Source: Niallia circulans (GTDB taxonomy: Bacteria; Bacillota; Bacilli; Bacillales; Cytobacillaceae). Taken from it: a stretch of 64,000 bases of DNA. Position 1 is the first letter of the stretch. Each line of letters begins with the position of its first letter. The notes beneath the pieces were generated by a model. That model worked only from the letters and a program-made list of their open reading frames with translations, was not told the DNA's origin and ran no database searches. Location: contig NZ_CP026031.1 of assembly GCF_003726095.1 (NCBI RefSeq), forward strand, positions 2,790,001 to 2,854,000, read 5' to 3'. Positions 12,512 through 27,239 of the stretch are shown here, piece after piece. The position numbers were made by a program, and so were the translations under genes.

Positions 12512-14524
12512 TTAGTTTCTTGCCATGGAAGCTTTCACTTTAGCTACAACATTTTCCACCGAAAATCCATACTCTTGGAAAAGTTTATCCGCCGGAGCTG
12601 AAGCACCAAAATGATCAATGGTGATACATTCTCCTTTTGCTCCGACATATTCTCTCCAGCCAAGTGATGCACCAGCCTCGATAGCAACACGTGCTTGAAC
12701 GCTTTCTGGCAGAATACTTTCTTTATATTCAGGAGATTGCTTTTCAAAAAGATCCCAGCTTGGCATACTTACCACATTTACAGAAATTCCTTCTTCTGCT
12801 AAAGCTGCTTGTGCATTGATTGCAAGGGATACTTCTGATCCTGTTGCCAGAATTAATGCCTGCGCTTCTCCTTGAGCTGGGGAAACAATGTATGCACCTT
12901 TTTTCACCCCTTCGTAGGCTTCTCCCTTCGTTAAGTCGAGAGTCGGCAGGTTCTGACGTGTCAATACTAGTGCTGTTGGTGTATCTGTACTTTCTAATGC
13001 CAGTTGCCATGCTGCTGCTGTTTCTTTGGCATCTGCTGGACGAATAATCGATAATCCTGGCATAGCGCGTAGGGAAGCCAATTGTTCAATTGGCTCATGT
13101 GTTGGACCATCTTCTCCGACAGCAATACTATCATGTGTGAATACATATGTTACTGGTAGTTTCATTAATGCTGCTAAGCGGATTGCTGGGCGTAAATAAT
13201 CAGAGAATACGAAGAATGTTGCGCCAAATACTTTTACACCACCATGTAGTGCTAATCCGTTTAATGCAGCACCCATTGCAAATTCACGTACACCAAACCA
13301 GATATTTCTACCAGCATATCCATCGATAGCAAAGTTCTTTTCAGCAGTCATTAACGTCTTATTGGATCCTGCTAAATCAGCTGAGCCACCAAATAAAAAT
13401 GGAAGTTCTTTCGCTGCTGCTTGAATCGTTTTCCCAGAAGATTCTCTTGTTGCCATCGATTCCCCTGCAGTAAATTCAGGTAGCTTTGCTTGCAAATCAG
13501 CTGGTAATTTCCCCTTGATTGCTGATTCTAATTGAGCAGCTAATTCCGGATAGGCTGCTTTATAATTTTCATAAAGTTCATTCCATGCTTTCTCTTTATC
13601 TGCGCCTGCTTGTGCTAATGCCGCATAATGCTCCGATACTTCTGCTGGAATATAGAATGCTTCTTCATATGCCCACCCATACGTTTGTTTTGCTAATTGT
13701 GTTTCAGAAGCTCCAAGCGGTGCACCATGTGATGCAGATTTTCCGCCTTTATTTGGAGAACCATATCCAATTACGGTTTTCACTTCAATGAGAGAAGGAA
13801 TATCTGATTGTTTCGCCTTTATAATAGCCTTATGAATTTCTTCTATATTATTTCCATCTTCCACACGAATAACTTCCCATCCATATGCTTCAAAACGTTT
13901 TGGAACACTTTCAGAGAACGAAAGATGCAAATCACCATCTAACGAGATATCATTGGAATCATATAATACTACTAATCTACCTAATTTTAAATGGCCTGCA
14001 AGAGATGCTGCTTCTGCCGATACTCCTTCCATTAAATCGCCATCACCGCAGATGCTGTACGTATAGTGATCTACTACTGGATAATTTTCTTTATTATAAG
14101 TTTCTGCCAAGTGTCTTTCTGCCATTGCCATTCCTACTGCCATCGCGATTCCTTGTCCCAATGGGCCAGTAGTTGCTTCCACACCTGGAGTATGGCCGAA
14201 CTCTGGATGACCTGGCGTTTTACTTCCCCATTGACGAAAATTTTCCAAATCATCAACCGTTACATCATATTGAAATAAATGCAACAAGCTATAAAGAAGC
14301 ATGGAACCATGTCCTGCTGATAAGACAAACCGATCACGGTTAAACCAATTAGGATTAGCCGGATTATGATTCATTTCCTTTGCCCATAATGTGTATGCCA
14401 TTGGTGCTGCCCCCATTGGCATTCCTGGGTGACCAGAATTTGACTTTTCAATAGCATCAATGGATAATGTTCGAATTGTATTAACTGCTAGTTTTTCTAC
14501 ATTTGCAACAACTGTATTAGTCAT
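12512..14524 (-). CDS. tkt: transketolase, cassette copy 1
   Basis: A 670-residue thiamine-diphosphate enzyme transferring two-carbon ketol units between pentose, tetrose and hexose phosphates. The TPP-binding run GDGDLMEG...[11 protein letters not shown] (about residues 155-190), the N-terminal [17 protein letters not shown] and the [14 protein letters not shown] segment are intact. Its ATG overlaps the stop of the PFK-like gene by four bases (ATGA), so the two are probably translationally coupled. It is highly similar to the second copy at 23392-25407, far more so than the linked PFK-like pair. Pentulose phosphate delivered by the PTS dehydrogenases would be its substrate. Confidence 0.95.
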
Positions 14525-15408
14525 ACTATCATTCCTTCGTAATTTTTATTTAAATAAAGAACTCCTTCTTTTTTAACTGCTATTTCTCCTGTTGGACTAT
14601 CATTTTTTATCCATAATGAAATGATTTCCGCTATTTCGTTTGCTAAAATTCGGTCAATTGTTGTTGGATTGGTTCCCATGCACAGAGCTTCATCAATTTC
14701 CGTGTATTTCCAATCCACATTTAAAGAGCGAATCAGGTTCTTCTCTACACTTGCTTTGTTTAAATGACTATAAACTAGTACAGAAGAAGTTTGAAGAGAA
14801 TTAAAACTATTATCGATTTTATTGCATAAAAGCTCTACTTCTTCTAATTCATCCGTATTTGCTAAAAAATGACCATCTACCGCCATGGAAATATCTTGGA
14901 GCATATGATTCGATGGGAACCCGTTTATAGCAAAACCAAACAATCTTGGTTTATCATATTTTAGCGAATGAATGGTATCTTTTACCTTCAGAACCATTTG
15001 CGTGATACTATTAATTGCGGTGTCATAGCCTAAAGACCAATCTGAACCTTTGATATTATTATAAATAGAGACAGGAACATATAAGGAATGGATCGTTTCG
15101 CTCGCTGCAAATGTCTGCGTCCATCGTTCTTTTGCCTGTTCATCGCCAATAAAAATTATACTGTCCATCGGAGAACAGATTTCTTCCCATCTGATATTGT
15201 CTACTAATGGTGATGGCTTCAATACAGAATCACTTAAATAGGGAGAATCATTATTCACAATAAATTCAAGATAGTCCGCTTTCCCTGTTTCTTTATTCAC
15301 TTCAATCCCAAATAATTGATGAGTTGGAGTCCATTCATTAAACATTTTATGAATAATCTGCTTTACCCCTGCAGGCAGTAGCCCTGCAATAATGATGCCT
15401 ATCTTCAA
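14521..15408 (-). CDS. degenerate 6-phosphofructokinase-like protein, copy 1
   Basis: A 295-residue protein that aligns along its length with ATP-dependent PfkA but lacks its active site. The PfkA catalytic segment [20 protein letters not shown] corresponds here to [20 protein letters not shown], so the catalytic Asp127 equivalent is Tyr and Asp129 is Asn. MGRHAG is replaced by INGFPSN, and LGHVQRGGSPTAFDR by [15 protein letters not shown], removing the substrate-binding His and Arg. The GGDGS motif is only GDEQ. The fold appears retained, catalysis as PFK does not. TTG start at 15406-15408 with CAGGGGG upstream. Lies between rpiB and tkt; a regulatory or scaffolding role is inference. Confidence 0.75.
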
Positions 15409-15506: not shown

Positions 15507-15953
15507 TCAACATAGGTATTTCTCTAATTCCCCAATAGCTCCGACTCTTCTTTCATGTCTTCCACCTAAAAATTCCGCCTGAAGCCATGTTTCTACTATT
15601 AGCAAGGCCAAACCTTCTCCTGTCACTCTCTCTCCTAAACATAGGACATTACTATTATTATGTTCCCTAGTAGCTTTCGCGGAAAAAACATCTCCAACTA
15701 CAGCTGCTCGTATACCATTTATTTTATTTGCCGCAATACTCATTCCGATACCAGTTCCACAACAAAGAATTCCTAAATCATTTTGCCCTCTAACAATCGA
15801 TTCTCCCACTTTTTTGGCATAGTCTGGGAAATCTACACTTCCTCGACTGTGACAACCAAAATCTTCTACTTCTACTTCTTGTTCTAATAAATACTTCTTC
15901 ACTGCTTCCTTGAGCAAAAATCCACCATGATCACATGCAATAGCTAACTTCAT
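15507..15953 (-). CDS. rpiB: RpiB/LacAB-family sugar-phosphate isomerase, copy 1
   Basis: A 148-residue isomerase; the ATG at 15951-15953 is preferred because GGATGAGGAG lies upstream and its length then equals the second copy. ACDHGG near the N-terminus binds the phosphate and opens the ring, GILCCGTGIGMS places the catalytic Cys at 65, and REHNNSN provides His98. Family members interconvert ribose/ribulose 5-phosphate, or allose, galactose and other 6-phosphates. In this locus pentose 5-phosphate is the simplest substrate. It heads the first cassette, about 100 bases before the PFK-like gene, with a candidate cre site at 16131. Confidence 0.9.
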   Translation of the reverse strand: MKLAIACDHGGFLLKEAVKKYLLEQEVEVEDFGCHSRGSVDFPDYAKKVGESIVRGQNDLGILCCGTGIGMSIAANKINGIRAAVVGDVFSAKATREHNNSNVLCLGERVTGEGLALLIVETWLQAEFLGGRHERRVGAIGELEKYLC

Positions 15954-16265
15954 GCTCCTCATCCTTTCTATTAGTCAACTCTATTAATCGGATTCAGAAT
16001 GGGAAAAGACGTATTATTTCCTTCCAGGAAGAACCAAATAATAGAATCATGAAACAATCAACTCTCATGCCCATTACATTCTGTTAGTTCCTTTTGGCAT
16101 GTTCATTTTATCACATAAATCCTAGTTGACTGTATACGTTTTCATCCTCAATATTGTTTTACCTTTTGTGCCATCTAGTGATGGAAGATAATTTATAATA
16201 AAGTAAACAGATAAAAATACCCCACTTTTATGATGGAAGAGGAGTATTTTTTATCTGACAGCTGC
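15954..16265. promoter_or_regulatory. rpiB1 upstream region with candidate cre site
   Basis: TGTATACGTTTTCA at 16131-16144 fits the CcpA cre consensus TGWAANCGNTNWCA with one mismatch, and lies about 180 bases before rpiB1. The right end holds the terminator of the dehydrogenase genes. No gene is seen. Confidence 0.5.
16212..16253 (-). terminator. terminator of the PTS/dehydrogenase operon
   Basis: ATAAAAATACCCC pairs with GGAGTATTTTTTAT with a mismatch; TTTTTATCTG follows on the minus strand. It separates the operon from the rpiB1 cassette. Confidence 0.65.
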
Positions 16266-17297
16266 TTAAGATTCAATTAAAACTTTTATCTCATCACCAG
16301 CCATTACTTTTTCAAAACCATTGCGCCATTCAGCAAGTGATACGATCTTTGTAATCATTTTATCTGTATCGATTTTTCCATCTTCAAGTAATTTCAGGGC
16401 AATATCCCAAGAACTAGGTTTTTGAGAACGACAGCCGATATAGTTAATTTCGCGTTGAATAATGGACTCTTGATCGATTTCATTTGCTTTCTTTGCAAAT
16501 AATCCTACTTGAACGAATGTTCCTTTTTTCTTTGTTAGTGCAAGACCTTGGTTTACAGCTGGAACTGCTCCCGAACAATCAAATACTTTATCTGCACCAT
16601 AGCCATCCGTATATTGGTAAACCATTTTGCTCAAATCTTCTTGTAAAAGATCAACGACAACATCTATTCCTAATTCCTTTGCAAGATCTAATCGCTTTCT
16701 ATCTTTTGTAATGCCAGCCAATATAACGAAGGCGCCTTGTGCTTTTACTACTTGACTTAATAACAATCCAATGGGACCAGGACCAAATACTAAAACAGTA
16801 TCGGTTTCTGCAATCGTTGTTTTTTCTAACGCGGCATGAACACAACAAGCTAATGGTTCTGTTAAAGCAGCTGCTTCTAAACTAACCTTTTCGTTTAAAA
16901 CATGAACGCTCTCTTCCCTAGCAATCACATATTCTGCCATACTACCATTTACTTGTGTACCAAGACCTGTTCGATTTGGACAAAGATTATAGTCCTTTTC
17001 TTGACAATAGATACATTCTCCGCACGTTGTAAAGGTCGTTTCACTTGTTACTCGATCTCCGACTTTTACTCTTGTAACATCTTTGCCAACCTCCACTACT
17101 ACACCAGAAAACTCATGTCCTAAGACAACAGGAGTATTTTTGCTATTGTATTCCCCTTTAAAGGTGTGAATATCAGATCCACAAATCCCTGTGTATGCAA
17201 CTTTTATTTTTACTTTATCGTCATATGCAGAAGGCTCATCGATTTCGATTAGCTCCATTTCATCATAGCCGGATTTTAATTTTGTTACAGCTTTCAT
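16266..17297 (-). CDS. zinc-dependent polyol (phosphate) dehydrogenase, sorbitol-dehydrogenase-like
   Basis: A 343-residue medium-chain dehydrogenase. GICGSDIHTF and GHEFSG carry catalytic zinc ligands; four cysteines in CGECIYCQEKDYNLC form the structural zinc site at about 95-110; GPGPIG near 175 is the nucleotide-binding glycine motif. It starts immediately after the stop of the adjacent GatD-like gene. As the last gene of a PTS operon it probably oxidises an imported polyol phosphate to a ketose phosphate. A pentitol phosphate is inferred from the nearby rpiB and transketolase genes; the two dehydrogenases may serve different stereoisomers. Confidence 0.85.
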   Translation of the reverse strand: MKAVTKLKSGYDEMELIEIDEPSAYDDKVKIKVAYTGICGSDIHTFKGEYNSKNTPVVLGHEFSGVVVEVGKDVTRVKVGDRVTSETTFTTCGECIYCQEKDYNLCPNRTGLGTQVNGSMAEYVIAREESVHVLNEKVSLEAAALTEPLACCVHAALEKTTIAETDTVLVFGPGPIGLLLSQVVKAQGAFVILAGITKDRKRLDLAKELGIDVVVDLLQEDLSKMVYQYTDGYGADKVFDCSGAVPAVNQGLALTKKKGTFVQVGLFAKKANEIDQESIIQREINYIGCRSQKPSSWDIALKLLEDGKIDTDKMITKIVSLAEWRNGFEKVMAGDEIKVLIES

Positions 17298-18350
17298 TTA
17301 ATTCTCACTCCCATTTGGTAAAATTAACACTTTTCCATAGTTCTCTTCACGATTAATAATTAGATTAAAAGCCGCTTGAGTATCTTCTAAAGGAAATCGA
17401 TGAGAAATTAAATCTTTCAACTTAATTTGTCCCTTTTGTAAAAAGGTAATGCTTTTTGTCCATTCTTCACCAGGGAAAGGAGCTGAATAGGAATTCCAAA
17501 ATCCCTTTAAGGTTAACTCTCTTCTAAAAATATTTTCAAATGCTTTTTGTGATAAAGTTACATCAGAATATGCAATGCCTAAATATCCGATCTTTCCCTT
17601 CTTACGTGTAATCAATAAACATTGTTCTTGTGTAATTTTTGAACCTGCACATTCTAAAGCTATATCTACACCCAGGCCATTGGTATATTCATCTATTTTT
17701 TGATATAAGTCTTCTTTTTTTGCATTAATAGTTTTTTCACAGCCAAATGCTCTTGCTTCTGCTAACTTTTCATCGGAAATATCAATAGCTATTATTTCTT
17801 TAACCCCGGCTATTTTTAACCACTGAATAACGAGCATACCAATTGTTCCTGCACCAAAGACTGCGACTACATCACCTAAATGCGGCTTAATATTTAATAC
17901 TCCATGTAAAGCAACTGCCAGTGGTTCAATCATTGCTGCCTCTTCAAAATCCATTTCGCCAATTGATAAAATATTCGTAGCAGGAACATTACAATACTCT
18001 GCAAATCCTCCATAAGATTGGGATCCTATCATTCCATGATTTTCACACAATGAAAATTGTCCCTTTAGACAATATTCACATTCGTTACAAGGTATAAAAG
18101 GAATGACAACAACTCTTTCACCAACTTTTACATTTGTAACCTTAGATCCAATTTCAGTAACAATTCCGGAAAATTCATGCCCCATTATTGCTGGTAATGG
18201 ATATTTCCAAACACTTGTCATTTTATGTGTATCAGATCCGCAGATACCAGCCGCCATTACTTTGACCTTAACTTCTGTGGCTTTACATGATTCTAGCTCT
18301 ATATCTTCATAAATAATTTTGTTTTCAGCGTGGAGAACTGCTGCTTTCAT
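17298..18350 (-). CDS. gatD: galactitol-1-phosphate 5-dehydrogenase-like polyol phosphate dehydrogenase
   Basis: A 350-residue zinc medium-chain dehydrogenase resembling GatD. Structural zinc cysteines lie in CNECEYCLKGQFSLC; GAGTIG marks the NAD-binding fold; the late segment GFWNSYSAPFPGEEW corresponds to the WMNYSSPWPGQEW signature of GatD that contacts the phosphorylated polyol. It would oxidise the product of the PTS. The name follows similarity only; the D-arabitol/xylitol PTS loci of Listeria use the same enzyme family for pentitol phosphates. Confidence 0.8.
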   Translation of the reverse strand: MKAAVLHAENKIIYEDIELESCKATEVKVKVMAAGICGSDTHKMTSVWKYPLPAIMGHEFSGIVTEIGSKVTNVKVGERVVVIPFIPCNECEYCLKGQFSLCENHGMIGSQSYGGFAEYCNVPATNILSIGEMDFEEAAMIEPLAVALHGVLNIKPHLGDVVAVFGAGTIGMLVIQWLKIAGVKEIIAIDISDEKLAEARAFGCEKTINAKKEDLYQKIDEYTNGLGVDIALECAGSKITQEQCLLITRKKGKIGYLGIAYSDVTLSQKAFENIFRRELTLKGFWNSYSAPFPGEEWTKSITFLQKGQIKLKDLISHRFPLEDTQAAFNLIINREENYGKVLILPNGSEN

Positions 18351-18383
18351 CGTTTAAACCTCCATTTCTTATTTTCATTTCAT

Positions 18384-18432
18384 AATAAAAGCAGACGCAC
18401 CAGCATAATTGCTTAAATCATCTGCTTTTATT
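18384..18432 (-). terminator. hairpin between EIIC and dehydrogenase genes
   Basis: AATAAAAGCAGA (18384-18395) pairs perfectly with TCTGCTTTTATT (18421-18432) across a 25-base loop. TTTTATT is part of the stem, so it may be a leaky terminator setting the PTS to dehydrogenase expression ratio. Confidence 0.5.
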
Positions 18433-18445
18433 CATTAAGTTCTAG

Positions 18446-19723
18446 TTATTTTCCAAATAAAAAGGCAACCGCTTCAGAGAATTTTAAGATTAACCAGTTA
18501 AATAAGTTACCTCCTAGATCTAAGCTAGAAATTTGGGTAGCACCCTCAGGTAAAGTAAATTGCGCACCAGAAATCATCTGAGTATGAACCTCCGCAAAAT
18601 TAGTAGCCATATATAGTGATAACGCTACCATTACGATTCCAGCTAAAACAGAGTGAATGATATTTCCTTTACGAGATCCTACAACAAACGCAATATAAAA
18701 TGGAATTGTCGCTAAATCACCAAATGGCAACACTTTATTACCTGGTAAGATTACAGCTAAAAATAATGTAATTGGAACTAAAATAAGTGCAGTTGCCATA
18801 ACTGATGGATGTCCTACAGATACTGCTGCATCCAATCCTATATAAATCTCTCTATCGCCATATCTCTTTTGTAAAAATGACCGTGCTGACTCTGAAATAG
18901 GGATTAAGCCTTCCATTAAGATCTTAACCATACGCGGCATTAATAACATTACTGCTCCCATTGAAATACCTGTTTGTAATATTTTTCCGATATCATAACC
19001 AGCAAGTAATCCAATAAGTGCACCGAGGATTATGCCCATCATCATTGGTTCACCAAAAATTCCAAAACGCTTTTGAATAGTTTCAGGGTCTGCATTTAAT
19101 TTATTTATTCCTGGAATTTTTGCGATAGCCCAGCCTACTAATATACCAATTGGTCCGAATGCCGCTGTAGAACCAGTTGGTAATGAAATTCCATCAAGCC
19201 CATAAAATTTTTGAACCATAGGAGCCGTTTTATCAGCAACAAACAGAACAGCATATTGATAAATAATTGCACATAAAATTGCAAACCACCAACTATCTGT
19301 TACAATATAGCCAGTTGCACCAGCTGCAATAAAGTGCCAGTAATTCCAAATATCAATATCCAAAGTTTTTGTCATCTTTGTTAATAAGAAAAAGATATTT
19401 GCAAATAAACAAATCGGAATTAAAATTGCTGCAACAGGTGATGCCCAAGATAGAGCTGCTGCTGAGGGCCATCCTGTATCAATTACTGTTAGATTCAATC
19501 CAAAACGCTCAACCATCTGCTGTGCAGCTGGGCCTAGAGTACTAACAAGCAAATCAATAACTAAGTTAATCCCAACAAATCCAATCCCAATAGTTATTCC
19601 CGCTTTTAATGCCTTTTTAAAGCCTGTCTTAAATGCAAGACCCAATAGAATAATAGCAATAGGTAAAATTACAGTTGGTCCAAGATTTAATACATACTGA
19701 ACGCCATCTAATAGCTTTTGCAT
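18446..19723 (-). CDS. gatC: PTS galactitol-family permease, EIIC component
   Basis: A 425-residue integral membrane protein of the galactitol PTS family. Typical features are the N-terminal LNLGPTVILPIAI, the FGEPMMMG loop and repeated hydrophobic helices. It translocates the polyol while EIIB donates the phosphate. Together with the flanking EIIB and EIIA genes it forms a complete EII complex. Galactitol is the name of the family, not a proof of substrate; Listeria pentitol transporters also fall here. Confidence 0.9.
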   Translation of the reverse strand: MQKLLDGVQYVLNLGPTVILPIAIILLGLAFKTGFKKALKAGITIGIGFVGINLVIDLLVSTLGPAAQQMVERFGLNLTVIDTGWPSAAALSWASPVAAILIPICLFANIFFLLTKMTKTLDIDIWNYWHFIAAGATGYIVTDSWWFAILCAIIYQYAVLFVADKTAPMVQKFYGLDGISLPTGSTAAFGPIGILVGWAIAKIPGINKLNADPETIQKRFGIFGEPMMMGIILGALIGLLAGYDIGKILQTGISMGAVMLLMPRMVKILMEGLIPISESARSFLQKRYGDREIYIGLDAAVSVGHPSVMATALILVPITLFLAVILPGNKVLPFGDLATIPFYIAFVVGSRKGNIIHSVLAGIVMVALSLYMATNFAEVHTQMISGAQFTLPEGATQISSLDLGGNLFNWLILKFSEAVAFLFGK

Positions 19724-19759
19724 ATTTTTCCCTCTTCTCTTTTGTTATATATTAGATTT

Positions 19760-19797
19760 AATTTCTGTTAATTGTTATATAACAATTAACAGAAATT
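19760..19797. repeat. perfect 38-bp palindrome between EIIB and EIIC genes
   Basis: The arms 19760-19778 and 19779-19797 are exactly complementary (AATTTCTGTTAATTGTTAT and its reverse complement), with no spacer. As RNA this would be a long AU-rich hairpin 36 bases before gatC. No T-tract follows, so it is not a standard terminator. Confidence 0.8.
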
Positions 19798-19819
19798 TCA
19801 TCCAAATTCACTTAACTTC

Positions 19820-20101
19820 TTATTTCAAATGATCGAGAATTTTTTTATCTAAACTTTCCATTCCAATTCCAGTGATATAAGCCGTAGCTATAATTGCTGG
19901 TATCTGATAAGTTGTAGGAAGAATAGTAGTTGAAACGATAATATCTGCCTCACTTTGTTTTGAAGCTACTTCTGCTATTTTACATTGAATAACTTCCGCA
20001 TTAATATTGTTATCCTTCACCAAATTCTCCACTCGATTACAAACTACAGTTGAAGTTGCGATACCTGCTCCACATGCTACTAAAATTTTATATTTTTTCA
20101 T
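19820..20101 (-). CDS. gatB: PTS galactitol-family EIIB component (distal copy)
   Basis: A 93-residue soluble phosphocarrier. The phosphorylated cysteine is Cys10 in ILVACGAGIATST. It takes phosphate from EIIA and passes it to the sugar at EIIC. It follows a second, related EIIB gene by 32 bases, so the operon encodes two EIIB proteins for one EIIC. It ends ESLDKKILDHLK, resembling the IEKLDKEILSYF end of the other copy, indicating a tandem duplication. Confidence 0.9.
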   Translation of the reverse strand: MKKYKILVACGAGIATSTVVCNRVENLVKDNNINAEVIQCKIAEVASKQSEADIIVSTTILPTTYQIPAIIATAYITGIGMESLDKKILDHLK

Positions 20102-20133
20102 TTTTAAAATCCCCTTCCATTCTTTTAACGTAT

Positions 20134-20433
20134 TTAGATTGTTTTGCTTGTTCTTTCAAAATAACTTAGAATCTCTTTATCTAGTTTTTCTATACCTAAC
20201 CCACTAATATAAGCAGTAGCACTGATTGCTGGGACTTTATATTTTGTAGGCAATATAGTAGTTGATATGATTAAAAATGCATCATCTTGTAAACTTGCCA
20301 CTTCTGCTATTTTACATTGAACAAGCTCTACCTTTAGATTTTCTCGTCTAAATAATTCTTCTAAATGATCTAAAACAACTGTTGATGTAGCAATCCCTGC
20401 ACCACATGCCACAAGTACTATTGGCTTGTTCAA
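20134..20433 (-). CDS. gatB: PTS galactitol-family EIIB component (proximal copy)
   Basis: The protein is 99 residues from a TTG start at 20431-20433, which has AAGGTGG at good distance and puts the active cysteine at position 10 (VLVACGAGIATST) exactly as in the other copy. A GTG at 20445 would leave no room for the ribosome binding site. It is clearly paralogous to the downstream EIIB. It may phosphorylate a different partner or one substrate stereoisomer; both share the same single EIIC and EIIA. Confidence 0.85.
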   Translation of the reverse strand: MNKPIVLVACGAGIATSTVVLDHLEELFRRENLKVELVQCKIAEVASLQDDAFLIISTTILPTKYKVPAISATAYISGLGIEKLDKEILSYFERTSKTI

Positions 20434-20448
20434 TCTAATCACCACCTT

Positions 20449-20916
20449 TCATGAAATTTTAATGCTTTCAAATAATAATGTTATATCTGATTTATCCTTT
20501 GCATGAATAAGCTTTTCAAGATGCTCTTCTACTTGGATAACCTGCATTAACTCCTGTAGAACCTCAATTTGGCTATGTGGTTGATTTAAGCCAAGCATTA
20601 ATACAGCTTGCACCTCCGTTGTTTTTGTATTATCTTCCATTAAATGAAAGGATACTGGTTTTTCTAAAACAGAAACGGCGATAAATTGCTCCACTACATG
20701 TTCCGGATCTGTATGAGGGATAGCGATACTATAATTATTGACACTGAGCCCTGTTGGGAAGATCGATTCTCTCTCTTTAATTTTCGGTAGAAAGGTTTCT
20801 TTTACAAAGCCTTGCTCATATGCCTTTTCGAACATTGCATGGAAAAGCTCATCTTGATTTTCTACCTTTAATCCGATGTTTATTAAACTTTCTTTAATAA
20901 ATGAAGCAACTGCCAT
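20449..20916 (-). CDS. gatA: PTS EIIA component, fructose/mannitol type
   Basis: A 155-residue EIIA-2 domain protein from the ATG at 20914-20916 (GGAGG eight bases upstream); an upstream GTG at 20937 overlaps that site. The phosphorylated histidine is in IAIPHTDPEHV. It transfers phosphate from HPr to the two EIIB proteins. Its stop overlaps the ribosome binding site of the proximal EIIB gene. Confidence 0.9.
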   Translation of the reverse strand: MAVASFIKESLINIGLKVENQDELFHAMFEKAYEQGFVKETFLPKIKERESIFPTGLSVNNYSIAIPHTDPEHVVEQFIAVSVLEKPVSFHLMEDNTKTTEVQAVLMLGLNQPHSQIEVLQELMQVIQVEEHLEKLIHAKDKSDITLLFESIKIS

Positions 20917-20943
20917 TTTAAACTCCTCCACTTTCACTTAACT

Positions 20944-22998
20944 TTAAGAATATTTTTTAATGATTTCATATAGTTGATTGGAATCATTACTGTTTTTTAA
21001 ATTGCTGATATCTTCTTCATTTTTTGATAACTTCATCAGCTGTCTTAATGCATAAAGATGTTTATGCTTATCTGTAGATGCCAATACCACAATAAAATGG
21101 ACGCAAACGTTATCATTAAATGGAATACCTTCTTCTATTTTTAATAAGCTCATGCCGACATTATTTACACCATCTTCTGGTCCTGCATGAGGTATGGCTA
21201 TTACGTTTCTTAGTAAGATATGCTGTACCATTGTAGGATACTGTTTCACCATTTCTGCAATATAATTTTCTGTGATGCTGCCATTTTTCAGCAGCTTTTC
21301 TGCTGCAAGTTGGATTCCTTGCTGCCAACCTTCTATTCTTTTCACCACGGTAATCATTTTTGGTGCTAAGAGAGAGGAAAGGGATAAATCTGTCTTCGCC
21401 ATTGGTTCTTGTGAATCATTAGCTGGTGTAATGGAGAAATGTTCTTGTAACGTACTGCGCAAAGACTCTTTATCTTTTATAGAAGCATATTTCTCAATTT
21501 TCCCCATTAATTGTTCAATGTTGATCACACTAGTATTTAAGTCAAATATTTCTCTTAATACTCTTTGTCTAAGCTGAACTTTTTCAAAATCTGTTAATAT
21601 GCGATTAATGACAAATTGCTTTGTATCCGTTTGCAAAGGCACTGGTGAAAAAATAATATCCACTTGGTAATTAAGTTGTTGAAATTCCCGAATAGATAAA
21701 GCATGATAAAAGTAAAATTCAGGGAATAACTCACGTAATGTGCTTTCCATTAGGCGTGATATCGATACACCATTTGGACAAACAACGACCGCTTTCTTCT
21801 TCTTCTGAATTGTTTCTCCTGAGCTGATTAAATGTCCGCCAATGAAGATGGTGATGAACATTAGTTCACTTTCTGGTATGGGACAGCCGATATATTCTTC
21901 TACTGGAGAAATCGAATCCTTTACAATAAAATGAATTGTTTCAAATTCTTCGCTTACTTTTTCCATCATCGTGTAATTCGTCGTTAGATTATATTTCATT
22001 CGATAATAAGCAGGCTTCATATGAAGAACTAATCTTTCAAGTAATGCCGCTTTATCCTTGAAGGCTATACACGCTTTATATTCAAAAGTATGAAGAAATT
22101 GTTCCAAGGCCCTCGTCAGCTCTGGGATTTGGTGATCAGCTAAAAACTGTGCAGATAATATTTTGGATGTAAGCAGCTGCAAGGTCAAAAACAGATGCTC
22201 TTCTTTCGGAATAGCTTTCATATCTTTAATCAAGATTTCTGCAGCAATAAATTCTTTCGTATCGGACAAGGAGCGATAATCAATATGGTAAAAATCTTGA
22301 ATTACTTTCCCTTGTTGAATACGCTTTAGTATGACTGCTAAAATATATGGCAAAAGATTAATTCGTTCATCAATAAACTGAAGGTGTAAACTGCTTTCGA
22401 CTTCTGCAAGCCTTTCTTTAATCGTTGTCAGATTGTCTTTTGATATATCAATAAACTTTTGAATATAAACTTCTCCATTATAAATCGATAAGATATTTTC
22501 CAATACTTCCACTAATAATTTTCGGACATCCCATTCCTTTCCTTTTAATTCATATCCTTTCATTCTTGAATAACTAACTTCAAGCTCGTATGGTTCAATC
22601 ATTTGCTGAACATTTTTCATATCACGAAGGACCGTGTTTTTACTTACACCTAAGGCGGTAGTAAAATGCAGTAAGGAAAGCTCTTCATTGCTACTGATAA
22701 TATACAATAGAATAAATTGAGCTCTTTCCGTTTCAGATGGAATATAATGTTTATCCACTTGTTCGTCTGTCTTTTCAGCGAATAATTCCATAATGACTGG
22801 GCTAATAATGAATTTTCCGCCATTTGTTCTTTTGATAGCTGGATAATTATTCGATTCAAGCCAATCATTAATCTTCTGAAAACTGTAACTAACTTGCCTT
22901 CTAGATAACTGAAATTTTTTCTCTAGCTTTATGTTAGAAGTATCGGGATTACTCAATACTTCCTTTAATAAGATATTACTTCTTTCGTCAAGATACAT
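20944..22998 (-). CDS. PRD-containing transcriptional activator with EIIB- and EIIA-like domains (BglG/LicR/MtlR type)
   Basis: A 684-residue regulator. Order: N-terminal helix-turn-helix (about 1-65), second HTH (near 85-150), two PTS regulation domains (about 185-400), an EIIB-gat-like domain with the cysteine in VVCPNGVSIS (about 405-490), and a C-terminal EIIA-2 domain with the histidine in IAIPHAGPEDGV. The PTS controls it by phosphorylation at these sites. It is the first gene of the PTS operon and probably activates it when the polyol is present. LicR and MtlR have the same architecture and bind DNA rather than RNA. Confidence 0.9.
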   Translation of the reverse strand: MYLDERSNILLKEVLSNPDTSNIKLEKKFQLSRRQVSYSFQKINDWLESNNYPAIKRTNGGKFIISPVIMELFAEKTDEQVDKHYIPSETERAQFILLYIISSNEELSLLHFTTALGVSKNTVLRDMKNVQQMIEPYELEVSYSRMKGYELKGKEWDVRKLLVEVLENILSIYNGEVYIQKFIDISKDNLTTIKERLAEVESSLHLQFIDERINLLPYILAVILKRIQQGKVIQDFYHIDYRSLSDTKEFIAAEILIKDMKAIPKEEHLFLTLQLLTSKILSAQFLADHQIPELTRALEQFLHTFEYKACIAFKDKAALLERLVLHMKPAYYRMKYNLTTNYTMMEKVSEEFETIHFIVKDSISPVEEYIGCPIPESELMFITIFIGGHLISSGETIQKKKKAVVVCPNGVSISRLMESTLRELFPEFYFYHALSIREFQQLNYQVDIIFSPVPLQTDTKQFVINRILTDFEKVQLRQRVLREIFDLNTSVINIEQLMGKIEKYASIKDKESLRSTLQEHFSITPANDSQEPMAKTDLSLSSLLAPKMITVVKRIEGWQQGIQLAAEKLLKNGSITENYIAEMVKQYPTMVQHILLRNVIAIPHAGPEDGVNNVGMSLLKIEEGIPFNDNVCVHFIVVLASTDKHKHLYALRQLMKLSKNEEDISNLKNSNDSNQLYEIIKKYS

Positions 22999-23391
22999 TA
23001 TCTATCACCTCTTAACTTGATTTCATTGTAGCATGTAAAAACAAGATATTGTATCCGTTTTCATTTCCATTACTAGTTTGTGAATTGTGTCACTAAGTGA
23101 TTAACTTGCACAAATCCCCTTCTTTTCTCCTTCTATCATAAATACAAACTTGTTGCCAAGATTAATCTGATTATGTATATACAGCATGAAGCATATTTCT
23201 CTATTGTGACTGTATTTAACTACTTTTGCTACTTAAACTAATGATAAAGTTGACATCGATTCCTAAGACAAGATTTAACAATTTTATTTTTTCATTGGCG
23301 CCTACTTCTTTTTCTTTGTACAAAAAAGAAGCTAATAACCATCTCACATGGTTATTAGCTTCTGTCCTTTTCACCTAGAAACTTGCGGATA
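22999..23391. promoter_or_regulatory. PTS operon promoter region with candidate cre site
   Basis: TGTATCCGTTTTCA at 23050-23063 fits the cre consensus with one mismatch and lies about 50 bases before the regulator start, consistent with CcpA repression of the whole PTS operon. The rest is AT-rich with no gene; the tkt2 terminator is at its right end. Confidence 0.55.
23322..23363 (-). terminator. terminator of the second transketolase cassette
   Basis: AGAAGCTAATAACCAT (23327-23342) pairs perfectly with ATGGTTATTAGCTTCT (23348-23363); TTTTTTGTAC follows on the minus strand. Confidence 0.9.
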
Positions 23392-25407
23392 TTATTTTGC
23401 TTTTGCGATAGATGATTTTACTTTTGCCACAACATTCTCAACAGTAAATCCATACTCTTGGAATAATTTATCTGCTGGAGCAGATGCACCGAAATGATCA
23501 ATTGTAATGTGCTCCCCTTTAGAACCGATGTATTCTCTCCAGCCTAGAGATGCACCAGCCTCGATTGCAACACGTGCTTGAACACTTTCTGGCAATACAC
23601 TTTCTTTATATTCAAGAGATTGTTTTTCAAAACGATCCCAGCTTGGCATACTTACTACATTTACAGAAATTCCTTCTTCTGCTAAAGCCGCTTGTGCCTT
23701 GATTGCAAGAGATACTTCTGAACCAGATGCTAAGATTAATGCCTGAGCAGCTTCTTTACCAGCTACAACTGTATAAGCACCTTTTTTCACGCCTTCGTAT
23801 GCTTCTGCTTTTGTTAAATCTAATGTTGGTAAGTTTTGACGAGTCAACACTAGTGCTGTTGGAGTATCTGTGCTTTCAATTGCCAGTTGCCATGCAGCTG
23901 CTGTTTCTTTTGCATCTGCTGGACGAATGATAGAAAGCCCTGGCATTGCACGTAAGGAAGCAAGTTGTTCAACAGGCTCATGTGTTGGACCATCTTCTCC
24001 GACAGCAATACTATCATGTGTAAATACATATGTTACTGGTAATTTCATTAATGCTGCTAAGCGGATTGCTGGGCGCAAATAATCAGAGAACACGAAGAAT
24101 GTTGCGCCAAATACTTTTACTCCACCATGCAGTGCTAATCCGTTTAATGCCGCACCCATTGCAAATTCACGTACACCAAACCAGATATTTCTGCCGGCAT
24201 ATCCATCAATGGCAAAATTTTTCTCACTAGTCATTAATGTTTTGTTCGACCCAGCAAGGTCTGCAGAACCACCGAAGAAAGCAGGAACCGCACTAGCAAT
24301 TGCTTGAATTGTTTTCCCAGAAGAATCTCTTGTCGCCATAGAATCTCCAGCATTAAATTCTGGTAATTTTTCTTGTAAATCAGCAGGTAGTTCTCCTTTA
24401 ATAGCTGTTTCTAATTGAGTAGCTAATTCTGGATATGCTGCTTTATAATTTTCATAAAGCTCATTCCAAGCTTTCTCTTTTTCTGCGCCTGCTTGTGCTA
24501 GTGCCGCATAATGCTCCGATACTTCTGCTGGAACGTGGAATGCTTCTTCATATGCCCAACCATATGTTTGTTTTGCTAATTGTGTTTCAGAAGCTCCAAG
24601 TGGTGCACCATGTGATGCAGATTTTCCGCCTTTATTCGGAGAACCATAGCCAATAACTGTTTTCACTTCAATTAATGTCGGTATATCTGATTTTTTCGCT
24701 TGAGCAATTGCCGCTTGAATTTCAGCTAAGTCATTGCCATCTTCTACACGAATAACTTCCCATCCATATGCTTCAAAGCGCTTTTGAACACTTTCAGAGA
24801 AAGAGAGATTTAAATCACCATCTAAAGAAATATCATTGGAATCATATAATACTACTAGTCTTCCTAATTTTAAATGACCTGCAAGAGACGCTGCTTCTGC
24901 AGATACGCCTTCCATTAAATCACCATCACCGCAGATGCTGTACGTATAATGGTCAACAACTGGATAATTTTCTTTATTATAGGTTTCTGCAAGATGTCTT
25001 TCTGCCATTGCCATCCCAACAGCCATCGCAATACCTTGTCCTAATGGACCAGTAGTAGCTTCCACACCTGGTGTGTGTCCAAATTCTGGATGTCCTGGAG
25101 TTTTGCTTCCCCATTGACGGAAGTTCTTTAAGTCATCTACAGTAACACCGTAATTGAAAAGGTGCAGCAAGCTATATAGAAGCATAGAACCATGTCCAGC
25201 TGATAAAACGAAACGGTCACGGTTGAACCAGTTAGGATTAGCCGGATTATGATTCATTTCCTTAGCCCATAATGTATAAGCCATTGGCGCTGCCCCCATT
25301 GGCATTCCTGGGTGACCAGAATTAGACTTTTCAATTGCATCAATGGATAAAGTACGGATTGTGTTAATAGCTAATTGTTCGATATCTGTTTTTACTTGAT
25401 TACTCAT
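23392..25407 (-). CDS. tkt: transketolase, cassette copy 2
   Basis: A 671-residue transketolase from the ATG at 25405-25407; an ATG three codons earlier sits too close to AAGG. All TPP and substrate motifs seen in copy 1 are present. The two proteins are near-identical over long stretches by eye, with differences concentrated near residues 230-250 and 340-390. The nucleotide sequences also share long identical runs. Copy 1 starts inside the stop of its PFK-like partner; copy 2 has about 72 intervening bases. It has its own terminator and lies just upstream of the PTS operon promoter. Confidence 0.95.
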
Positions 25408-25479
25408 TTTCCTCATCCTTTTTTGATTTATTTAATGCTAGCCAAAATTAAAAAGAGTTTATTTCTTTTGGCTTAGCGT

Positions 25480-26340
25480 TTATTTAAATTGAATTCCATC
25501 CTTTTGAACGGTGAGTTCACCTGTTAAGCAATTATTCTTTATCCATCGCAAGACTTCATCCGCAAGTTCATTTGCTAGGATTCGATCGATGGCTGTTGGG
25601 TTTACTCCCATACATAATGCTTCGTCAATTTCTGTATATTTCCAATCTACCTCTAGCTTACTAATAACTGAATTTTCGATTACCTCTTGTAAAGCTTGGC
25701 TATATATTAGAACATTAGATGTTTTTGTATATGTATAGCTTTTCTTTATCGCATCACATAAAGTGGTAATTTCCTCTTCCTCGTAATCTACTGCTAAATA
25801 GTTACCATCCACCGCAAGAGAGATATCCTGCAGCATATTAGTCGATGGGTTACCCTCTATCGAAAAACCAAATAATCTTGGCTTATCATATTTAAGAGAA
25901 TGAATGGTATCTTGAACCTTTAACACATTCTGAGTAATACTGTTCAGTGCGGTATCATATCCTAGAGTCCAATCATTTCCTTTAATATTATTATAGACGG
26001 AAACTGGGACAAATAATGTACGTAGCGCTTCTTTATCAGCTATAGAAGTTTGCCATATTTCTTTTGCCTGCGCATCCCCCAATACAACAGTCATATCCAT
26101 TGGAGCAAATGTTTGTTCCCATAGATTATTTACTGGTGCAGCGCTTACCTTTAAGATAGTATGGCTTAAGTATGGTGAATCACTCACTTCTTTTATCTCT
26201 GTATAATTGACTTCACCGGACTTTCTATCTATTTCCATTCCAAATAGTTGATGCTTAGAAGATAACTCTTCATATAAGCGATGAAGAATTTGCTTTACTC
26301 CCGAAGGCAAACAACCTAAGACAATTACACCAACCTTCAA
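25480..26340 (-). CDS. degenerate 6-phosphofructokinase-like protein, copy 2
   Basis: A 286-residue paralogue of the protein at 14521-15408, roughly 60 percent identical by eye. The same PFK positions are lost: SVYNNIKGNDWTLGYDTALN in place of the TIDND catalytic loop, and DEALCMGVNPTAIDR in place of the fructose-6-phosphate-binding loop. These altered segments are almost identical between the copies although the rest has diverged, which argues they are functional, not decaying. A TTG start at 26338-26340 mirrors copy 1; a GTG one codon earlier is possible. It sits between rpiB2 and tkt2. The role is unknown. Confidence 0.75.
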   Translation of the reverse strand: MKVGVIVLGCLPSGVKQILHRLYEELSSKHQLFGMEIDRKSGEVNYTEIKEVSDSPYLSHTILKVSAAPVNNLWEQTFAPMDMTVVLGDAQAKEIWQTSIADKEALRTLFVPVSVYNNIKGNDWTLGYDTALNSITQNVLKVQDTIHSLKYDKPRLFGFSIEGNPSTNMLQDISLAVDGNYLAVDYEEEEITTLCDAIKKSYTYTKTSNVLIYSQALQEVIENSVISKLEVDWKYTEIDEALCMGVNPTAIDRILANELADEVLRWIKNNCLTGELTVQKDGIQFK

Positions 26341-26579
26341 CACCTTACCCCCTAACCTTTACAAGCTATTAAGTAACTAATAATATACAGAAAAATGTAC
26401 ATACTTATTGAAGAAAAAGGACCAATTTCCCTTTTCTTCTCCGTGATATATTTTTCCAAACTCATTATAGCATACAACTTACCAAGAATAAACCATACAT
26501 ATTTAGTATAACCTATTAATAGTACGTACAAGTTATAATATGTTTCATTTAACAAATCCGAGGTTAATTTGTCCTACTA

Positions 26580-27026
26580 TTAACAATAATATGATTCTAA
26601 TTCTTTAATTCCACTGATACGCTTTTCATGTCTGCCGCCTAAAAATTCTGCATTTAACCAAGTATCTACTATTAAACACGCTAGTCCTTCCCCAGTCACT
26701 CTTTCTCCTAAACAAAGAATATTGCTATCATTATGCTCTCTTGTTGCCTTTGCTGAGAAGACATCACCAACAACCGCTGCACGAATTCCAGTGATTTTAT
26801 TGGCAGCAATACTCATGCCTATTCCTGTTCCACAGCATAAAATACCTAGTTGGTTTTCACCATTCACAATCGATGCACCAACACTTTTTGCATAATCTGG
26901 AAAATCCACACTTTCTCTACTATGACAGCCAAAATCTTCTACTTCCATCCCCGCATTATGAAGATGGGCTTTTACTGCTTCCTTTAACTGATATCCACCA
27001 TGATCACTGGCTATTGCAATTTTCAT
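26580..27026 (-). CDS. rpiB: RpiB/LacAB-family sugar-phosphate isomerase, copy 2
   Basis: A 148-residue isomerase, about three quarters identical to copy 1. It keeps ASDHGG, the catalytic Cys65 in GILCCGTGIGMS, and His98 in REHNDSN. First gene of the second cassette; 240 bases separate it from the PFK-like gene, more than in copy 1. A weaker cre-like sequence lies at 27091-27104. Substrate is inferred to be a pentose 5-phosphate. Confidence 0.9.
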   Translation of the reverse strand: MKIAIASDHGGYQLKEAVKAHLHNAGMEVEDFGCHSRESVDFPDYAKSVGASIVNGENQLGILCCGTGIGMSIAANKITGIRAAVVGDVFSAKATREHNDSNILCLGERVTGEGLACLIVDTWLNAEFLGGRHEKRISGIKELESYYC

Positions 27027-27239
27027 AAACTCATCCTTTCTAGATAAGATGGTTCTATTTCAGATGTATTCTAACATAAAAACTATTATTTGTATTCGGT
27101 TGCATGTGAAAACTTTATTAATTTTCAACCACAAACAAATGGGAATAAGATCTATACCTAAACAATTCCCAGATCATATAGAAATTTGTGTGATAACATA
27201 CTTTAGTCCAACCCAATGTATTTAGTAATATTTAAAAAT
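27027..27239. promoter_or_regulatory. rpiB2 upstream region with weak cre-like site
   Basis: TGTATTCGGTTGCA at 27091-27104 fits the cre consensus with two mismatches. It occupies a position similar to the cre of the first cassette. No gene is seen. Confidence 0.35.

Follow-up and report, generated by a model that had tools for sequence, protein, structure and literature searches.

The window analysed here, a stretch of 64,000 nucleotides (G000:C1:2790001-2854000) from the 5.18-Mb genome of Niallia circulans (G000), carries two copies of a gene for a degenerate phosphofructokinase (PFK) homologue, here termed pfkL. Each copy stands between genes for ribose-5-phosphate isomerase B (rpiB) and transketolase (tkt), and all features described lie on the minus strand (Table 1). 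Copy A belongs to operon A, which runs from a BglG-type regulator through PTS proteins and two zinc dehydrogenases to rpiB-pfkL-tkt. Module B, running from 27026 to 23392, consists of rpiB-pfkL-tkt, and a hairpin of 16 pairs with a T run comes after it. In copy A, the pfkL stop and the tkt start overlap as ATGA (pfkL end 14521, tkt start 14524), an overlap that an earlier sequence-only reading had taken to support a joint function; it is not general, and in copy B a gap of 63 bp separates the two genes.

Table 1. Features of operon A and module B, in positions of the window
Feature	Position	Strand	Remarks
tkt copy A, transketolase	12512..14524	-	NCBIfam TIGR00232, 959 bits; ATGA overlap with pfkL
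pfkL copy A	14521..15408	-	295 aa, TTG start; catalytically degenerate PFK homologue
rpiB copy A, ribose-5-phosphate isomerase B	15507..15962	-	TIGR01120, 184.8 bits, above cut-off
cre-like site (CcpA consensus), upstream of rpiB-pfkL-tkt copy A	16131..16145	-	exact match to the consensus as we take it
zinc-dependent alcohol/polyol dehydrogenase	16266..17297	-	family level only; no NCBIfam model above cut-off
zinc-dependent dehydrogenase, nearest galactitol-1-phosphate 5-dehydrogenase (below cut-off)	17298..18350	-	
PTS IIC, galactitol type	18446..19723	-	TIGR00827, 561.6 bits, above cut-off
PTS IIB-like protein	19820..20101	-	by sequence and position
second PTS IIB-like protein	20134..20445	-	by sequence and position
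PTS IIA-like protein	20449..20937	-	by sequence and position
BglG/MtlR-type regulator	20944..22998	-	by sequence and position
cre-like site, upstream of operon A	23050..23064	-	exact match to the consensus as we take it
terminator-like hairpin, between module B and operon A	23327..23363	-	16 pairs and T run
tkt copy B, transketolase	23392..25416	-	
pfkL copy B	25480..26343	-	287 aa, GTG start; 56% identity to copy A
rpiB copy B	26580..27026	-	ORF; sequence homologue of rpiB copy A
cre-like site, upstream of module B	27091..27105	-	exact match to the consensus as we take it

The gene order at 16266-22998, with a BglG-type regulator, PTS proteins and polyol-phosphate dehydrogenases, resembles the bglG-atlABCD arabitol operon of Bacillus methanolicus (PMC6685057), and the substrate of operon A would therefore be a pentitol. 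The excerpted text of that article names no PFK-like gene in bglG-atlABCD. The two adjacent IIB-like genes of the PTS operon (19820-20101 and 20134-20445) resemble each other in sequence. The genome has three full-length transketolase genes (G000:C1:1152693, 2803502 and 2814385), two of them inside the window.

Exact matches to the cre (CcpA) consensus, as we take it to be, number nine in the window where 1.08 would be expected; one site is counted twice among them, once per strand. Three of them are placed upstream of operon A, rpiB copy A and rpiB copy B; given the excess over expectation, both pfkL-tkt modules are likely under CcpA control. Near pfkL such sites are not general, with one present between -1500 and +300 in 6 of 38 loci. 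Promoter-like matches were no commoner than in shuffled sequence (49 versus 60.1), and thus no promoter is claimed. Terminator-like sites also stood at chance level (8 found, 8.3 expected), the one at 23327..23363 being that with 16 pairs and a T run, and a search of window positions 8000-32000 with Rfam gave no RNA element match.

Sequence comparison places the homology between PfkL and PFK far above chance. The copy A protein matches the Pfam PFK family PF00365 with 53 bits (cut-off 30.9) over residues 81-260, a PfkL profile aligns to the PFK profile with an E value of 2.4e-20 in HHalign, and phmmer finds PFKs of known structure in the PDB with E values down to 1.1e-9. The PFK fold is predicted for PfkL in a single-chain model, and the fold search listed no other family at comparable Z, which does not by itself exclude any. 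The proposal that 14521..15408 encodes a PfkA homologue is thus borne out, and the profile-profile search and structure prediction suggested with it did not bring up an unrelated fold. No NCBIfam PFK model reaches its cut-off on PfkL (TIGR02482, PfkA, 56.7 versus 371.35 bits). Across the G000 genome, PF00365 matches a single normal PfkA (395.6 bits) besides the two degenerate copies of the window.

Residues were counted in 86 distinct rows of the PfkL family aligned with 15 PfkAs (MAFFT; PfkA numbering). In copies A and B, respectively, PfkA TIDND reads SIYNN and SVYNN, GGDGS is replaced by GDEQ and GDAQ, MGRxAG by INGFPS and IEGNPS, and the loop motif is DEALCMGxNPTxIDR. The sequence-only reading had quoted the altered motifs correctly and had held them to be almost invariant between the two copies; among homologues the exact replacements vary, and it is the absence of the catalytic residues that recurs. 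Catalytic Asp127 occurs in none of the 86 rows (Y34/F29/H10/L6/S3/I1/A1/Q1, one row gapped). At the positions that we take to form the ATP/Mg site of PfkA, Gly11 is found in 0, Arg72 in 1, Asp103 in 2 and Ser105 in 4 rows, and among other ligand residues Arg171 and Arg252 are never retained, with Glu222 in 27 and Asp129 in 29 rows. Glu161 is likewise absent from all 86 rows (P51/V29/L6). His249, which with Arg252 presumably holds phosphate within its own subunit, is lost, its position being taken by Glu240 in the MAFFT alignment, where this column is acidic in 80 of 86 rows, or by Ala241 in HHalign. Judged by its residues, PfkL is a pseudoenzyme without catalytic, ATP-binding and most of its own F6P residues, which upholds the earlier view of a catalytically dead PFK homologue; with Asp127 in 0 of 86 rows, an active or promiscuous PFK is ruled out. 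Several relatives lacking Asp127 are nevertheless annotated as 6-phosphofructokinase in public databases, which would mislead metabolic models.

Two positions follow a different pattern. The Arg162 column holds Arg in every one of the 86 rows (PfkL Arg155), and the Arg243 column is always basic (Lys 81, Arg 5; PfkL Lys234). PfkA Arg243 is, we assume, a residue lent across the subunit interface of the homotetramer. HHalign pairs R155 with Arg162 and K234 with Arg243, as does the MAFFT alignment. Among 40 rows from 38 fetched loci, R155 is kept in all 39 that have a residue there, and position 234 reads K29/R5/N5/Q1, with N or Q in deeper branches. Constraint peaks around these two positions, at residues 111-163 and 231-260 (35 rows less than 70% identical). 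In active PFK, the F6P phosphate is bound by an Arg162 that the adjacent subunit contributes, and in the T state Glu161 replaces this residue (PMC12203962). We read this pattern as that of a protein apparently under selection to supply residues to the site of a neighbour and not to run its own. Arg155 may also be conserved for a structural role or for a PfkL homo-oligomer, for example through a salt bridge to Glu240.

A phmmer search returned 53 PfkL relatives, the closest, 92% identical, being named for Niallia circulans, and a profile search returned 95 proteins, 87 with at least 243 bits and 8 with at most 76. All 13 Niallia genomes carry the family, with 17 copies above 400 bits. In an order-level sample, 27 of 397 genomes bear PfkL, G000 included, and represent 16 genera; the 25 bearers outside family f38 score at least 126 bits, the two f38 genomes 96 and 83, and other PFKs at most 86, and members weaker than this range would escape the count. 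Four high-scoring other PFKs (L061-L064) carry TIDND. At class level, at least 6 of 398 genomes were found among the matches listed, all six in the same order. The f38 proteins (L089, L102) are outliers on long tree branches without the usual PfkL motifs, so that their membership is unsure, and they are possibly a second kind of dead PFK. Their genes sit between a ROK-family gene and a regulator with two GFO/IDH/MocA oxidoreductases, and no PF00923 match was found in these genomes.

Between Niallia genomes, dN/dS was 0.135-0.177 for pfkL copy A (three comparisons) and 0.036-0.141 for copy B (two comparisons, one on 180 codons), and 0.033-0.113 for tkt (six comparisons, one between paralogues). 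pfkL is kept by purifying selection; the five pfkL values, 0.036-0.177, together with the spread over 16 genera, rule out a decaying pseudogene. A plasmid-borne origin was rejected as well, with 3 weak matches in 72,556 plasmid records and none covering 80% of the query. At one locus (L069, G014), the only frame called for pfkL is C-terminal and 125 aa long, so that the gene appears broken, by either decay or an assembly error.

Gene neighbourhoods of pfkL, 9-18 kb each, were compared for 12 Niallia genomes besides G000 and for 26 bearers outside Niallia; neighbours were identified on representatives and otherwise by cluster. In 17 of the 26 non-Niallia loci, pfkL is directly followed by tkt in the same orientation (L065, L067, L068, L070-L076, L078, L079, L084-L088); it lies three genes beyond pfkL in two (L066, L069) and is not beside pfkL in seven (L077, L080-L083, L089, L102). 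It adjoins pfkL in 10 of the 12 other Niallia genomes, the exceptions being G005 and G008. The distance from pfkL to the longest possible tkt start ranges from -65 to 190 bp, often -4 to 40. The survey of rpiB-pfkL-tkt neighbourhoods that had been proposed shows a lasting link to tkt, whereas that to rpiB is local: it is seen at the majority of Niallia loci and, outside Niallia, in a single other genus (L069). Of the two results that the sequence-only reading had named as refuting it, the second, homologues lacking conserved altered motifs and any link to rpiB/tkt, came true in part, for the precise motifs and for rpiB but not for the loss of catalytic residues or for tkt. On the tree, the tkt link is spread over the majority of clades, f44 and f38 being without it, and although several forks are weak the pairing is probably old. 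At L070 (G285), the linked tkt, located at a contig end, is split over two reading frames (189 and 400 aa).

Genes for pentitol PTS, xylose, arabinose or gluconate lie upstream in 12 of the 26 non-Niallia loci and vary by clade: xylA-xylB at L071, L074 and L075, an FGGY kinase alone at L072, araD-araA at L076 and L078 (the latter also with araB), gnd-gntK at L080-L083, and a pentitol-type PTS with dehydrogenases at L066 and L069. The other 14 have no pentose gene directly upstream (Na+/alanine symporter, peptidase, lar genes, chemoreceptor and others). Downstream of pfkL-tkt, 9 of the 26 loci (L065, L068, L073, L076, L078, L085-L088) have a sugar-binding regulator of the DeoR type.

Bacterial PFK is classically described as a homotetramer under small-molecule control. 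We tentatively propose that PfkL is a stand-alone non-catalytic subunit that would join PfkA when carbon enters via the pentose phosphate pathway, the best of the readings considered here, though somewhat short of even odds. PfkL would lend Arg155, and usually also Lys234, to the sugar-phosphate pocket of PfkA across the subunit interface, mirroring the donation of Arg162 and Arg243 within the PfkA homotetramer. On pentoses, pentitols and gluconate, the mixed PfkA-PfkL enzyme would stay active, because PfkL is without the Glu161 that replaces Arg162 in the T state, or would accept another sugar phosphate. PfkL has the residue pattern expected of a hetero-oligomer subunit, a dead site of its own beside kept neighbour-donated residues, and this combination, with the Arg162 equivalent invariant, favours action on PfkA, one of the roles suggested by the sequence-only reading, and is no proof of it. 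Gene linkage to an active PFK would be typical of such a subunit, not obligatory; among the neighbours identified at pfkL loci, a subset of all neighbours, no pfkA was found, and tkt is the conserved one. All bearers examined contain one or more additional PFK-family matches; as the 397 order-level genomes without exception have a PFK match, this co-occurrence is uninformative. We infer the hetero-oligomer, its resistance to PEP and its benefit in pentose growth. A more specific version, which we consider rather unlikely, is an operon-encoded specificity subunit that replaces one or more PfkA protomers, Arg155 and Lys234 completing the pocket, to give a PEP-insensitive, sedoheptulose-7-phosphate (S7P)-tolerant PFK during pentose growth, as a bacterial hetero-oligomer evolved independently of eukaryotes.

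Eukaryotes are known to have PFK units that are dead or regulatory and accompany active ones (PMC12203962; PMC3653104). Compared with bacterial ATP-dependent PfkA (PF00365, TIGR02482), PfkL is without the catalytic base, the ATP site and most of its own F6P residues. It aligns also to the dead C-terminal half of human PFK, which has TVSNN for TIDND and keeps the Arg after a longer loop. Both PfkL and the C-terminal half of eukaryotic PFK-1 are thus degenerate PFK units in which the ATP site is lost and the Arg162 equivalent kept; however, the eukaryotic unit is fused to an active half, whereas PfkL is a separate gene, and the former keeps a sugar-site His (LGH), used for fructose 2,6-bisphosphate, that PfkL lacks. 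Plant PFP alpha, a regulatory subunit of the PFK family encoded apart from the catalytic one that it accompanies (PMC3653104), is alike in principle; it belongs to the PPi-dependent PFP and is likened to PfkL by description, not by sequence. In the open-access literature, we found no description of a dead bacterial PFK linked to transketolase, and a search for the terms 'pseudo', 'non-catalytic', 'inactive' and 'transketolase' in the partial text of a PFK review (PMC12203962) found none of them. What would be new is therefore a separate bacterial dead PFK tied to transketolase, of which the open-access literature gave no instance, and not dead or regulatory PFK units as such. If PfkL is indeed a subunit of PfkA, bacteria would be able to exchange a subunit of the enzyme that guards entry to glycolysis for a regulatory one, depending on diet, and PfkL would offer an experimentally tractable counterpart, evolved independently, of the dead half of eukaryotic PFK.

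It is conceivable, with a lower probability, that PfkL is a homo-oligomeric sensor of sugar phosphates, binding an intermediate of the pentose phosphate pathway, or nothing if Arg155 and Lys234 are paired to the neighbour's Glu240, and regulating an enzyme or the operon. In a PfkL dimer, Arg155 and the basic residue 234 would also face each other's pockets, the mostly acidic Glu240 could pair with both, and the DeoR-type regulator that follows tkt in about a third of the loci (9/26) is consistent with such a role. However, the loss of His249 and Arg252, which we take to be the intra-subunit phosphate holders, would leave PfkL's own pocket poorly suited to a sugar phosphate, and no DNA-binding domain was found in PfkL with Pfam and NCBIfam models.

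We regard it as improbable that PfkL acts on the adjacent transketolase as a partner or modulator of its activity, despite the recurrent adjacency, the stop/start overlap at some loci and the presence of tkt-linked members in most clades. The seven non-Niallia loci without adjacent tkt include four f44 gluconate-operon loci (L080-L083) in which R155 is kept, and tkt is not beside pfkL in Niallia G005 and G008. The linked transketolases compared are ordinary, full-length and close matches to that of the window, and we know of no transketolase-binding feature in the PFK fold.

Slightly more improbable still is that PfkL and PfkA together form an S7P kinase that bypasses transaldolase by the SBP pathway. 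A precedent exists in cellulolytic clostridia, where a PPi-dependent PFK acts in place of transaldolase (PMC7029132); this enzyme is also tied to pentose use, but it is active, unlike PfkL, and it replaces transaldolase, whereas most PfkL bearers have a transaldolase-family gene. At order level, 5 of 27 bearers lack a PF00923 match, as do 17 of 370 non-bearers (Fisher p 0.012; genomes non-independent), so that transaldolase loss is weakly associated with PfkL, and without the two f38 genomes the association fades (3/25 versus 17/370, p 0.12). Within Niallia, transaldolase is patchy: the match is absent from 2 of 13 genomes (G004, G012), and in G001 the sole one is fructose-6-phosphate-aldolase-like and below cut-off. 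G031 and G075 have no PF00923 match and their pfkL-linked tkt is the only full-length one. Against a general bypass, which we reject, 22 of the 27 bearers have a PF00923 match, G000 itself has a TIGR02134 transaldolase (366 bits, above cut-off), and S7P is bound very poorly by E. coli PfkA (PMC7029132). In a small number of genomes, G031 and G075 for instance, the S7P bypass may be of importance, but it does not explain PfkL in general. Besides its full-length tkt, G031 carries a half transketolase of 285 aa. The three genomes of genus g25 that were compared, all bearers and one with transaldolase, are too few to decide the matter. In Niallia G002, a PF00923 gene interrupted by three stops lies beside an intact shorter one.
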